DNA of 64,000 nucleotides from Flavobacterium limnosediminis JC2902 (GTDB lineage Bacteria > Bacteroidota > Bacteroidia > Flavobacteriales > Flavobacteriaceae): contig NZ_AVGG01000001.1 of the NCBI RefSeq assembly GCF_000498535.1, forward strand, positions 310,001 through 374,000. Reading direction: 5' to 3'. A program made the position numbers and the translations under genes. The notes beneath the pieces were generated by a model. It saw nothing but the letters and a program-made list of their open reading frames with translations. It searched no databases and was not told the origin of the DNA. Below, piece by piece: positions 2,774 through 48,368 of this stretch (positions are counted from its first letter, which is position 1; every line of letters begins with the position of its first letter).

Positions 2774-2885
2774 AAAAGTTGTATTTTTCTTCCTGAAAAT
2801 GTGACTTCAAAAAGTGGTTGAAATTACAAAAAAAATCCCAAACCAATATTCTTTTATCCCTACTTAATTTATTTCCAATAGGTTT

Positions 2886-2917
2886 TAAAAAAAAAACCCC
2901 CACACAGTGAGAGTTTT
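2886..2917 (-). terminator. Hairpin plus T tract between rpmF and fabH
   Basis: On the minus strand an 11-bp stem (AAAACTCTCAC pairing with GTGGGGGTTTT, two G-U pairs) with a TGT loop is followed by about ten Ts. It sits 20 bases after the rpmF stop and upstream of fabH, so it should end or attenuate transcription within the cluster. Confidence 0.7.
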
Positions 2918-2936
2918 CTCTATTCTTTTTTTCGGA

Positions 2937-3131
2937 TTATGCCTCCGCTACTTGTTTGTCAATAACAACTTGACCTCTGTAGTACATTTTACCTTCATGC
3001 CAGTAAGCTCTGTGGTATAAATGCGCTTCTCCTGTTATAGGACATGTTGCAATTTGAGGAGTTGTCGCTTTATAATGCGTTCTTCTCTTATCTCTTCTTG
3101 TTTTCGAGGTTTTTCTCTTAGGATGTGCCAT
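2937..3131 (-). CDS. rpmF: 50S ribosomal protein L32
   Basis: Small basic large-subunit protein, 64 residues, starting [16 protein letters not shown] after the Met, the standard L32 N-terminus. Only one Cys is present ([10 protein letters not shown]), so the four-cysteine zinc ribbon of some L32 proteins is missing. It follows yceD by 9 bases, the widely conserved yceD-rpmF pair, and precedes fabH as in many bacteria. Confidence 0.97.
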
Positions 3132-45335: not shown

Positions 45336-45372
45336 AATGCATTTAATTATTAATCTTAAATATAAAAATATC

Positions 45373-45978
45373 ATGGCATTCGAATTACCACAATTACCAT
45401 ACGCTTATGATGCTTTAGAGCCTCATATTGATGCACGTACGATGGAAATCCACCATTCAAAACATCATAACGCTTATATCACAAACCTGAACGCTGCCAT
45501 TGCAGGGACAGATTTGGAAGGAAAATCGATTGAAGATATCCTGAAAAATCTTGACATGAACAACATGGCGGTGCGCAACAACGGTGGCGGGCACTACAAT
45601 CACACTATGTTCTGGGAAATCATGGCACCAAATGCAGGCGGTCTTCCAACAGGAGAATTGGCTGAGGCTATCAACGCTGCTTTCGGTTCTTTTGAAGAGT
45701 TTAAGGCACAGTTCGCTAAAGCAGGTGCGACCCGTTTCGGTTCCGGATGGGCTTGGTTGTGTGTTAAAGACGGAAAATTAGAAGTATGCTCTACGCCAAA
45801 TCAGGACAACCCGATTATGCCGGGCGTACCTTGTGGTGGCCAACCGATTTTGGGAATGGACGTTTGGGAACACGCGTACTACCTAAACTACCAAAACAGA
45901 AGACCGGATTATATCGAGGCGTTCTTCAACGTAATTAACTGGGCTGAAGTTTCAAAACGTTACGCAGCAGCGAAATAA
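45373..45978 (+). CDS. Superoxide dismutase, Fe/Mn family
   Basis: 202 residues from ATG 45373 ([17 protein letters not shown]); upstream in-frame codons are AT-rich and not conserved. Metal ligands in [21 protein letters not shown] and [21 protein letters not shown]. The [17 protein letters not shown] segment leans to the Mn or cambialistic type, but metal choice cannot be read from sequence. Followed by its own terminator, then the duplicated small-RNA region. Confidence 0.95.
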
Positions 45979-46091: not shown

Positions 46092-46178
46092 AATAAAAAA
46101 GGTGGAATTGCTTCCACCCTTTTTGCCCCAAATCTACCATAAACTTAACCTACTAATGCTATGGTAGTACGAATGTAT
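46092..46178 (-). repeat. 87-base direct repeat, copy B
   Basis: Identical over 87 bases to 46308-46394; the identity breaks at 46091 and 46179. No transposase, inverted ends or target duplication. Confidence 0.95.
46095..46166 (-). ncRNA. Candidate small RNA, copy B
   Basis: Predicted RNA of about 70 nt on the minus strand. 5' stem CTACCATA / TATGGTAG with an 18-base loop, a single-stranded linker ATTTGGGGCAAAAA and a 3' intrinsic terminator GGTGGAA GCAA TTCCACC followed by T6. The TSS is estimated a few bases after the -7 box. No coding potential. Its twin is at 46311-46382. Not recognised as a named family; Rfam was not searched. Confidence 0.65.
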
Positions 46179-46201
46179 GGCGGTTGTTACTCAACTTCAA
46201 A
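46170..46201 (-). promoter_or_regulatory. Promoter of candidate small RNA copy B
   Basis: TTTG (46198-46201), exactly 20 bases, TACATTCG (46170-46177) on the minus strand. The 20 bases between differ from those of copy A, but the two boxes and the spacing are the same. Confidence 0.65.
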
Positions 46202-46307
46202 TAAATCAGACATACTACTATTTTTTTCGATAAAATGCATCTTTAGGCTTTAATCTCCTTTAATCAAAAAAAGGATGGAGCGCTTTCTTCAAACCGAAAG
46301 TAACTAA

Positions 46308-46394
46308 AATAAAAAAGGTGGAATTGCTTCCACCCTTTTTGCCCCAAATCTACCATAAACTTAACCTACTAATGCTATGGTAGTACGAATGTAT
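46308..46394 (-). repeat. 87-base direct repeat, copy A
   Basis: Identical to 46092-46178; nearer to purF. It begins 76 bases after the purF stop codon. Confidence 0.95.
46311..46382 (-). ncRNA. Candidate small RNA, copy A
   Basis: Same predicted 70-nt RNA as copy B: 5' stem-loop with CTACCATA / TATGGTAG, linker, and terminator hairpin GGTGGAA / TTCCACC (46317-46334) with T6. Located just after purF on the same strand but with its own promoter-like boxes, so it need not be processed from the purF mRNA. Confidence 0.65.
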
Positions 46395-46417
46395 CACGAC
46401 GGCTTTCATTCATCAAA
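46386..46417 (-). promoter_or_regulatory. Promoter of candidate small RNA copy A
   Basis: TTTG (46414-46417), exactly 20 bases, TACATTCG (46386-46393) on the minus strand; TACATTCG differs from TAnnTTTG at one base. Confidence 0.65.
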
Positions 46418-46469
46418 AAAAACAGATAAACTGCAAATAAAATCGTTGAAAGTCGTTTTTAATCTTTTT

Positions 46470-48368
46470 TTAATATGCACGGGCATCTTTCCCTTCGTAG
46501 AAATTCATAAAGGCGCGGTTCACTACACGATTACCTCCATCAGTCGGATAGTCACCGGTAAAATACCAATCACCTAAATTTTTAGGACAGGCCTTATGTA
46601 AATTCTCAACCGTCTGGAAAATAATTTTAACTTCTGTCTTAACCGAACTTTCTGTTAACATCTGAGCAATTTTATCGGAGATTTCCTGATCGGTAAACGG
46701 TGCGTAAATTTCTTTCACGTAATTCACCACCTCACTGTCGTGGAAATTTTCCTGTGCTTTGGATTTCTGATATACTTCTTCCACAATGTGTAATAAATTA
46801 CGCTCTTTCAGCAATTCCATTGCCGCACGGAACGCCACCAAGCCTTCGAGTTTCGCCATATCGATTCCGTAGCAGTCCGGATAACGGATTTGCGGAGCGG
46901 AAGAAACAATAACAAGTCTCTTAGGATTCAGACGGTCCATCATTTTGATAATACTTTTCTGCAACGTCGTACCACGAACGATACTATCATCTATAATTAC
47001 CAGATTATCTGTCGGTTTGATTACACCGTAAGTCACATCATATACGTGTGCCACCATATCATCACGACTGCTGTCTTCTGTGATGAACGTACGCAGTTTC
47101 ACGTCTTTGATTGCAATTTTCTCCGAACGCAGTTTTACGGATAAAATCTCCTGCAATGTTTCTGCGGAAAGCGAATCTTTATGAGCTAAAATATCGGCTA
47201 TTTTTCTTTGATTCAAGAAGTCATTGGCCGCTTCCACCATTCCGTAGAACGAAGTTTCCGCCGTATTCGGGATATAGGAGAACACGGAATTATCAGTATC
47301 ATTTTCAACCGCTTCCAGAACCGCCGGCATGATCAGTTTCCCTAAATTTTTACGTTCCTGATAAATTTCGGCATCACTACCACGAGAGAAATAAATACGC
47401 TCGAACGAACACGCTTTCAACGGTAAGGCTTCACGGATTTGCTCGTCGATTACACGACCGTCTTTTTTAACGATGATGGCATGTCCCGGAGTGATTTCTT
47501 TGATAGAATCGAATGGCACATTGAAAACGGTCTGAATTACAGGACGTTCCGAAGCTACCACCACGATTTCCTCATCTTCATAGTAAAACGCCGGACGAAT
47601 CCCTGCCGGATCACGCGTTACAAAAGCATCACCGTGACCTAACAATCCAGCCATGGCATAACCACCATCCCAGTTTTTGGAAGCTCTTCTTAAAATTCTT
47701 CCGATATCCAGTTTCTCGGCAATAACCGGAGAAGCTTCTCTTTTGCTTAAACCTTCGTTTTTACATTCCTGATACAAATCGGTAACTTCATCATCTAAGA
47801 AATGTCCGATCTTTTCCATTACGGTAACGGTATCCGCCATTTCTTTCGGATGCTGACCCAGACGTACCAGATCCTGGAAAAGCTCCTTAACATTGGTCAT
47901 GTTAAAGTTTCCGGCTACAATCAGGTTTCTGTGCATCCAATTGTTCTGACGAAGAAAAGGGTGCACACTTTCAATACTGTTTTTACCGAAAGTTCCGTAA
48001 CGTACATGTCCTAAAAACAATTCGCCGATGTAAGGAATGTTTGCTTTCTGAAGTGCAACATTATTCTGATATTCAGGATTTTGTTCCATTTCGTCATTAA
48101 TGCGCTGATTAACCTGCGCAAAAATATCCTGAATGGGCTGTGCCTGATTGGAACGCACACGACTGATGTAACGTTCTCCCGGTTCCATATCCAATTTTAT
48201 GCTGGCAAGACCAGCTCCGTCCTGACCGCGATTGTGTTGCTTTTCCATTAAAAGGTACATCTTCTGTACACCATAGAAAGCCGTGCCATATTTTTCTTTG
48301 TAGAATTCCAATGGCTTTTTCAATCTTAAAAGGGCAATACCGCATTCGTGTTTTAAAGCGTCACTCAT
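46470..48368 (-). CDS. purF: Amidophosphoribosyltransferase (glutamine PRPP amidotransferase)
   Basis: First committed step of purine synthesis. 632 residues, the long Bacteroidetes form. The N-terminal Ntn nucleophile is Cys9 (HECGIALLRL), so an 8-residue propeptide would be removed. The phosphoribosyltransferase part carries the PRPP loop VIIDDSIVRGTTL. Translation starts directly after three CAACAACA repeats and there is no Shine-Dalgarno sequence. No purine riboswitch-like fold is seen in the leader. Follows the PfkB kinase gene. Confidence 0.95.
   Translation of the reverse strand: MSDALKHECGIALLRLKKPLEFYKEKYGTAFYGVQKMYLLMEKQHNRGQDGAGLASIKLDMEPGERYISRVRSNQAQPIQDIFAQVNQRINDEMEQNPEYQNNVALQKANIPYIGELFLGHVRYGTFGKNSIESVHPFLRQNNWMHRNLIVAGNFNMTNVKELFQDLVRLGQHPKEMADTVTVMEKIGHFLDDEVTDLYQECKNEGLSKREASPVIAEKLDIGRILRRASKNWDGGYAMAGLLGHGDAFVTRDPAGIRPAFYYEDEEIVVVASERPVIQTVFNVPFDSIKEITPGHAIIVKKDGRVIDEQIREALPLKACSFERIYFSRGSDAEIYQERKNLGKLIMPAVLEAVENDTDNSVFSYIPNTAETSFYGMVEAANDFLNQRKIADILAHKDSLSAETLQEILSVKLRSEKIAIKDVKLRTFITEDSSRDDMVAHVYDVTYGVIKPTDNLVIIDDSIVRGTTLQKSIIKMMDRLNPKRLVIVSSAPQIRYPDCYGIDMAKLEGLVAFRAAMELLKERNLLHIVEEVYQKSKAQENFHDSEVVNYVKEIYAPFTDQEISDKIAQMLTESSVKTEVKIIFQTVENLHKACPKNLGDWYFTGDYPTDGGNRVVNRAFMNFYEGKDARAY

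Follow-up and report, generated by a model that had tools for sequence, protein, structure and literature searches.

The window analysed here is a stretch of 64,000 nt from Flavobacterium limnosediminis JC2902 (contig NZ_AVGG01000001.1, positions 310,001 to 374,000), and the coordinates below are positions within it. A superoxide dismutase [Mn] gene (45337..45978, plus strand) and purF (46470..48368, minus strand) converge there on a short intergenic region. The best NCBIfam matches of the two open reading frames agree with the identities given in the preliminary description, at 252.5 and 123.9 bits, both below the curated cut-offs, and the synteny of both genes is conserved. The region between them carries the same 87 nt twice on the minus strand, with copy 1 next to the dismutase gene, sodA (46092..46178), and copy 2 next to purF, its upstream neighbour on that strand (46308..46394). 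The two copies are identical and start 216 bases apart. A whole-genome blastn search returned these two copies, both here, so the repeat is not dispersed, and our RNA covariance model R1 likewise has two matches in this genome.

The two repeat copies are separate units, each equipped with promoter boxes, an operator and a terminator. Direct reading bears out the proposed minus-strand boxes: a TTTG at -33 (46198..46201 in copy 1, 46414..46417 in copy 2) is followed, after 20 bases that are unlike between the copies, by the -7 box TACATTCG (46170..46177 and 46386..46393), whose position is conserved. The predicted sRNA of about 74 nt occupies 46095..46168 in copy 1 and 46311..46384 in copy 2, its 5′ end being placed from the promoter and its 3′ end from the T run. 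It is supported by direct reading, by the predicted fold and by R1, whose match at copy 2 is not independent, as copy 2 was in the training set. At the 3′ end of either copy stands the full intrinsic terminator that had been claimed, GGTGGAA-GCAA-TTCCACC followed by T6 (46311-46316 in copy 2), and its G+C part (46101..46118 and 46317..46334) is backed by reading, fold and covariation. Upstream of the boxes, LytTR-type direct-repeat half-sites spaced at 20 bp form an operator at 46206..46240 for copy 1 (25.4 bits) and at 46422..46456 for copy 2 (27.4 bits). These operators, together with the family-wide conserved arrangement, the candidate regulator and the partner RNAs described below, go beyond the preliminary description.

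Folding of an 81-nt version of the minus-strand RNA gave a 5′ hairpin and the terminator, with an energy of -26.4 kcal/mol that none of 200 dinucleotide shuffles equalled (z = -5.1). An open stretch, AGAUUUGGGGCAAAAA, lies between hairpin and terminator. The predicted hairpin loop AUUAGUAGGUUAA (46145..46157 and 46361..46373) is strongly conserved in the alignments. The linker AGAUUUGGGGC (46125..46135 and 46341..46351), which we predict to be the seed from its conservation and from its complement in partner elements, has 10 of 11 columns invariant in alignment A1 and the remaining column above 90%, and its core AUUUGGG is kept in at least 95% across the family. Covariation, which had been suggested as a check on both stems, was assessed on 160 R1-matching copies from 78 loci, the best 150 of which (131 distinct) were aligned in an alignment fitted to the structure. 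The terminator covaries, with 12 of 13 pairs changed on both sides, while the 5′ stem does not (0 of 7) because its sequence is nearly constant; none of 500 shuffles scored as high as the structure as a whole. Single-sequence and alignment folds both place a hairpin at the 5′ end, without covariation support there. The near-invariant sequence of the 5′ stem fits conserved antisense pairing, with the hairpin itself still a prediction.

We also considered a coding reading from an AUG in the 3′ stem arm, and rejected it because the frame differs between clades, where a one-base difference after the AUG (GGTA versus GGTAA) shifts it. The preliminary description had linked the sequence to no RNA that it could name, and no Rfam 15 family reached its gathering threshold in 46092-46394. 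In the whole window, the Rfam 15 matches at threshold are one tRNA and a Flavo-1 RNA (RF01705; 11276-11358, plus strand, 66.8 bits), both elsewhere, the latter being the sole non-tRNA match.

Conservation and copy number beside purF

A blastn search in the genus matched 127 of 150 Flavobacterium genomes at E<=0.01, or 121 of 150 once six matches weaker than 1e-12 are dropped, and this conservation excludes a chance origin of the 87-base repeat. With R1, built from 57 distinct copies, 240 of 299 Flavobacteriaceae genomes matched at E<=1e-4; at E<=0.01 the count was 249 of 299, in 200 of 236 genera, nine of the matches being weaker than 1e-4. The number of matches per genome ranges from one to seven. 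In an order-level R1 search (196 genomes, the family included), matches outside the family had E-values of 5.8e-4 or weaker. A pattern scan of named genomes returned at least 118 stretches, and the 80 listed carry the names of Flavobacteriaceae genera, of Flavobacteriia or of unclassified Bacteroidetes/Bacteroidota.

Twenty of the 23 blastn-negative members of the genus were searched again with R1, and 13 gave nothing and seven gave matches at 28-34 bits. Six of these seven are terminator-like stretches away from purF. The seventh, at locus L261 of genome G117 (1400-1590), consists of AAAATAGCATTAGTAAAATTTAATTTTACGGTATTTTTGGGGG and a terminator and is best read as a diverged sRNA copy. It directly follows purF and has both a promoter-like box and an operator (14.9 to 18.7 bits), and L261 is the only one of the seven loci where an operator reaches 15 bits. 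Judging from this copy, the RNA sequence can probably drift while location and operator persist.

Synteny was followed in 226 loci with 473 copies, where overlapping loci are counted more than once. All 442 copies in loci that contain purF share the strand of purF, and in the 177 loci that also contain the dismutase gene all 394 copies lie between the ends of purF and sodA. Nine loci lack both genes: L071 and L089 span 3 kb and contain several copies each; in L120, L193 and L218 the ends are close to the copy; and L047, L111, L162 and L172, with at least 1.2 kb on either side of the copy, are likely second sites. L047, L402 and L405 contain copies with no purF or dismutase gene in the stretch covered, and of the genomes concerned G303 and G243 have a purF-linked copy as well (L403, L081). 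The copy at L402 (G173) is without an operator, and that at L405 has one of 17.9 bits. At L107, five tandem copies follow each other in steps of about 240 nt with upstream regions that are nearly identical in four, an array that would reflect recent amplification or gene conversion.

The preliminary description had proposed two tandem small-RNA genes, and this is supported by the identity of the two copies, their separate promoters and terminators, and the conservation across the family. Taken together, the sequence evidence indicates that the pair in the window is a pair of genuine sRNA genes belonging to a large family, undescribed in the literature searched. The suggestion that such duplicates tune dosage also fits, as the copies are separate units and other genomes have one to seven matches, which in the loci covered lie nearly always beside purF.

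The direct-repeat operator and its candidate regulators

Alignment of the upstream regions on the 5′ stem revealed a -7 box of the form TAYWTTTG at a conserved position and, further upstream, a direct repeat of approximately TGC[AC][GT]TTY[AG]TC[GT]AA; a clear TTTG -33 box was seen by eye mainly in Flavobacterium copies. Scored with a matrix that was defined after the sequences had been seen, two half-sites are present in 342 of 428 distinct upstream regions, with a spacing of exactly 20 bp in 313 of the 342 and of 21 bp in 20. Shuffled upstream sets gave 41 half-site pairs on average, scattered across all spacings. When a double-site weight matrix was run over 1.29 Mb, 377 matches fell at sRNA copies and 36 elsewhere, 21 of which precede sRNA variants missed by the search expression; the other 15 stand before a LytTR gene (2), before a gene whose product begins MSDIASRV (8) or before other sequence (5). 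Counted by copy across loci, the operator scores at least 15 bits at 396 of 498 copies and under 15 at 102, with 67 under 10. Nothing else in the 64-kb window reached 8 bits besides the two sRNA operators.

Other arrangements were noted in passing. In L129, L141, L155, L160, L190, L192, L203 and L224, operator-like sites of 18-22 bits stand shortly before the MSDIASRV gene, which we take from its appearance to encode an acyl carrier protein. At L218:404 (plus strand) an operator of 31.8 bits lies about 90 nt before a gene whose product looks, by eye, like a secreted protein rich in glycine. In Maribacter-like genomes the upstream region of some array copies has a different conserved block, TTTGTTATTT...ACAATACCAGTA, and in L066, L135, L165, L183, L189 and L192 one copy per locus has a TTTGTTATTT...ACAATACCAGTAATTTAG block that replaces the LytTR operator. 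This TTTGTTATTT...ACAATACCAGTAATTTAG block is, we predict, a second way to switch on one copy.

The assignment to LytTR regulators was suggested by their half-site consensus. With a 9-bp unit, a spacing of 20 bp corresponds to a gap of 11 bp, inside the published LytTR range of 11-13 bp. In L177 and L139, operators lie just upstream of a receiver + LytTR gene that adjoins glyS. A search for the L139 LytTR protein in 40 relatives gave 13 best loci (L227-L239), all with an operator about 200-250 nt upstream of the LytTR gene at 17.7 to 36.4 bits, L227 being identical to L139, and 7 of the 13 genes are about 4 kb from the sRNA. None of 51 other LytTR loci, four priA-linked ones included, had an operator of at least 15 bits (best 11.3). 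The receiver + LytTR gene of L227-L239 is likely an autoregulated second LytTR regulator. As this gene is missing from the genome of the window, where the best match has 29% identity, another LytTR protein would have to take on this role.

Nine genomes possess just one LytTR gene, and it adjoins priA in all nine. The sRNA operator is kept at 15.6 bits or more in the eight of these that were scored (the ninth, G397, fell outside the scoring), with that of G309 placed about 13 bases farther upstream than usual. Three genomes with no LytTR match, which are 86-95% complete, have kept the sRNA, and the operator is absent in all three. The number of LytTR genes fails to separate genus members with the sRNA from those without it. 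In the genome of the window the priA-linked orthologue is found on contig C18 (L260:2374-3069:-), and the best candidate for the activator is this priA-linked LytTR protein, whose binding to the operator we predict.

Alternatively, the operator could be bound by an activator of another class that also happens to control a LytTR gene. The 20-bp spacing could be taken this way, as most LytTR systems have a 12-bp gap in the published account (PMC6193735), and so could the lack of an operator at the priA-linked gene itself in four scanned loci. Three genomes (G314, G202 and G290) are counter-cases to our candidate, as they have the priA-linked gene together with sRNA operator scores of -7.4, -7.4 and 3.0. 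On the other hand, such an activator would not be expected to leave the operator at 13 of 13 L139-type LytTR genes, nor to have it disappear with the LytTR genes and persist wherever one was scored as the sole such gene. We judge an activator of another class unlikely, and the link between LytTR regulation and the sRNA operator appears good.

Predicted antisense partners and the proposed circuit

Partners were sought in 12 genomes with the exact 11-mer GCCCCAAATCT, the complement of the linker. With the sRNA genes left out, including the second-site copy of G173, the linker complement matched 23 times and the reversed control pattern 4 times. Of the 23 matches, 12 are intergenic (outside any ORF of at least 80 aa), 3 lie on the sense strand of an ORF and 8 on the antisense strand of one. 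Linker complements within ORFs were taken as chance and serve as the pairing control, these eleven sites pairing with the sRNA at -23.6 to -34.4 kcal/mol.

A strong partner is a multi-unit antisense stretch downstream of scoB, seen in 3 of the 12 genomes and at this place in all three genera, with no ORF of at least 80 aa following it. L399 has three perfect linker complements within 118 bases, L400 has two, and L397 has one together with a one-mismatch site; the operators in this set score 24.1, 18.4 and 22.9 bits, and the units of the stretch pair with the sRNA at -37.4 to -47.8 kcal/mol. These elements keep GCCCCAAATCT while their remainder diverges. With several sRNA-complementary sites and apparently untranslated, the stretch has the sequence features of a sponge, its transcript being predicted. 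No match to this putative decoy was found in phage records. In Flavobacterium G005, the leader of a gene for a CAP-domain lipoprotein is complementary, apart from internal mismatches, to 44 nt of the sRNA; the pairing spans the ATG (-45.1 kcal/mol), and an operator of 29.9 bits lies upstream. The leader of a receiver-domain (REC) gene in the same genome has a linker complement under an operator of 20.6 bits, and this gene is apparently the first of an operon that also encodes a family 2 glycosyltransferase and a protein with a sulfatase domain; the pairing of the leader (-30.4 kcal/mol), like that of five of the 12 intergenic sites (-26.3 to -33.5 kcal/mol), is no better than that of the sites in ORFs.

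A scan of 2.32 Mb of loci, allowing at most one mismatch to the 11-mer and covering pairing energies of -58 to -36 kcal/mol, left four strong elements that are not sRNA genes, namely the CAP leader and the decoy of each of three genera, and every one has an operator upstream. The set scanned includes overlaps and is enriched, some loci having been chosen for this 11-mer, and sRNA genes were excluded by eye. Shuffle z-scores for partner sites were disregarded because they are inflated by the preselection of sites with the 11-mer. The analysis covered 493 kb (14%) of the genome of the window, in which no decoy or leader element was conspicuous; it contains a single intergenic site, at -35.2 kcal/mol, and five sites that resemble the operator, at 15-20 bits. 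A site of this genome at G000:C2:244750, before an ORF starting MFLFKAFEKG, was tried as a target and taken as chance, because its pairing energy is -27.2 kcal/mol and the close relatives G079 and G010 have no intergenic match.

Two further stretches are recorded here. In L395 (about 2863-3030), an operator of 24.1 bits faces a gene that resembles, by eye, one for a sigma factor, and the opposite strand has a short RNA-like stretch that includes ACCTACTTATG and a terminator-like hairpin with GCCCCAAATCT in its loop; this is possibly a second kind of decoy. At L392:14466 (minus strand), a linker complement lies 7 nt upstream of where a 248-aa protein that has no Pfam match begins, and no operator of at least 15 bits was found in that stretch.

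We consider it probable that the RNA is a multicopy sRNA which is activated by a LytTR regulator, blocks translation by antisense pairing to leader elements, and is titrated by a decoy in some relatives. A LytTR-type response regulator would likely activate each copy of the array separately, so that copy number would set the dose, and each copy would yield a stand-alone transcript of about 74 nt. Pairing would start at the linker AGAUUUGGGGC, after which the opened hairpin would extend the duplex over the leader and start codon. On the mRNA of the CAP-domain lipoprotein the duplex would block access to the start codon, and the predicted multi-unit antisense RNA beside scoB, which shares the operator of the sRNA, would titrate it. 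Everything in this model from transcription onward is inferred. The case for pairing and for a sponge is strong at the level of sequence and comes from few genomes.

A different possibility is that the sRNA mainly binds a protein, for example the RRM protein RbpB, and not mRNAs, the antisense elements being by-products of inverted copies. The loop and linker are strongly conserved across the family, as a protein site would be, and the FopS sRNAs of Bacteroides, which are multicopy and of similar size, are reported to bind RbpB (PMC11697453). In relaxed Rfam scans FopS (RF04319) was also the best-scoring family from Bacteroidota, at 20.6-21.7 bits, with STnc40 (26.2) and sraA (23.4) from other groups. 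The FopS score is, however, far under the gathering cut-off of 56, and membership of FopS or of another Rfam family was rejected on such scores. Moreover, GCCCCAAATCT is retained in the antisense elements, which occupy a common position in three genera and lie under the operator of the sRNA, as would not be expected of by-products. We therefore hold a mainly protein-binding role to be quite improbable, and favor antisense pairing. That the repeats have no RNA function, being non-coding sequence maintained by gene conversion or a small mobile element, is hardly credible: copies within a genome can be near-identical, as the five in L107 are, but place and strand are conserved, the terminator shows compensatory changes, and promoter and operator lie at a fixed distance. 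A mobile repeat was rejected separately, as there are two genomic copies and the sequence is absent from viral contigs (exact pattern) and from phage and plasmid records (blastn).

The antisense model could extend to a titration switch operating throughout the family, in which one LytTR regulator would drive the sRNA array, the target mRNAs and the scoB decoy, and the ratio of array to decoy would set a threshold for surface proteins and an exopolysaccharide-like operon; we regard this broader proposal as evenly balanced between holding and failing. If the model is true, this RNA, with a core that is almost unchanged in most of the family genomes examined, would be a central post-transcriptional regulator. 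Studies of sRNAs in Flavobacteriaceae are few, and this one has no Rfam 15 match at threshold. The candidate regulator, the sRNA array, the targets and the sponge are named by sequence, so the circuit is testable. The variable copy number at one conserved locus makes sRNA dosage directly testable, and the system could offer a route into the function of LytTR regulators in Bacteroidota.

Relation to known systems

Like the FopS/GibS RNAs of Bacteroides, the RNA described here is found in Bacteroidota, is multicopy, measures about 70 nt and ends in a 3′ terminator. The weak alignment between FopS and the window sRNA shows the short common stretches AUUAG, UUAAG and GAUU. The 5′ part of FopS is described as single-stranded, and B. 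thetaiotaomicron as carrying 14 paralogues, whereas we predict a 5′ hairpin and find a tandem array at purF, and the available text of the FopS descriptions mentions no LytTR operator.

Within the flavobacteria, the sRNAs Rfp1-89 have been reported from F. psychrophilum, among them Rfp18, an RNA conserved in the genus without which two metalloprotease mRNAs are reduced in a deletion strain (PMC9723704). According to that account Rfp18 pairs with its targets through a third stem-loop, while the window sRNA is predicted to have two. The window sRNA may belong to the Rfp set, with which we compared it by description. Candidate sRNAs with no Rfam matches are also reported from F. columnare (PMC5395568). 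Judged by title and abstract start, the flavobacterial sRNA literature that we searched contains no description of this RNA, and our search for literature on LytTR direct-repeat binding sites in Bacteroidetes found none.

The LytTR regulators HdrR and BrsR are described as acting at direct repeats upstream of the -35 box, with a gap of 12 bp or, less often, 11 or 13 bp, and with autoregulated regulator operons (PMC6193735), and AgrA likewise binds direct repeats upstream of its promoters (PMC4227749). Compared with these systems, a main output here would be an sRNA array, and in Bacteroidota. In contrast to the autoregulated LytTR operons, the candidate gene adjoins priA and has no operator of its own in four loci. 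Enterobacterial RNA sponges, such as SroC and the chbBC leader, are transcripts with sRNA-complementary sites that titrate an sRNA. The predicted scoB sponge differs from these in having several tandem antisense units and the operator of the sRNA itself.

LhrC1-5 of Listeria monocytogenes are near-identical copies that all depend on LisRK and impair translation of a surface-protein mRNA (PMC4132741). The window shares with them several near-identical copies, each with promoter and terminator, and a response-regulator-type site at each of the two copies. LhrC uses CU-rich motifs and LisRK, where we find a G-rich linker and a LytTR-type candidate regulator, and a co-regulated sponge, which we predict here, is not mentioned in the available text on LhrC. 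If our model is right, LhrC, compared here by its description, would be the best functional parallel to the array beside purF.
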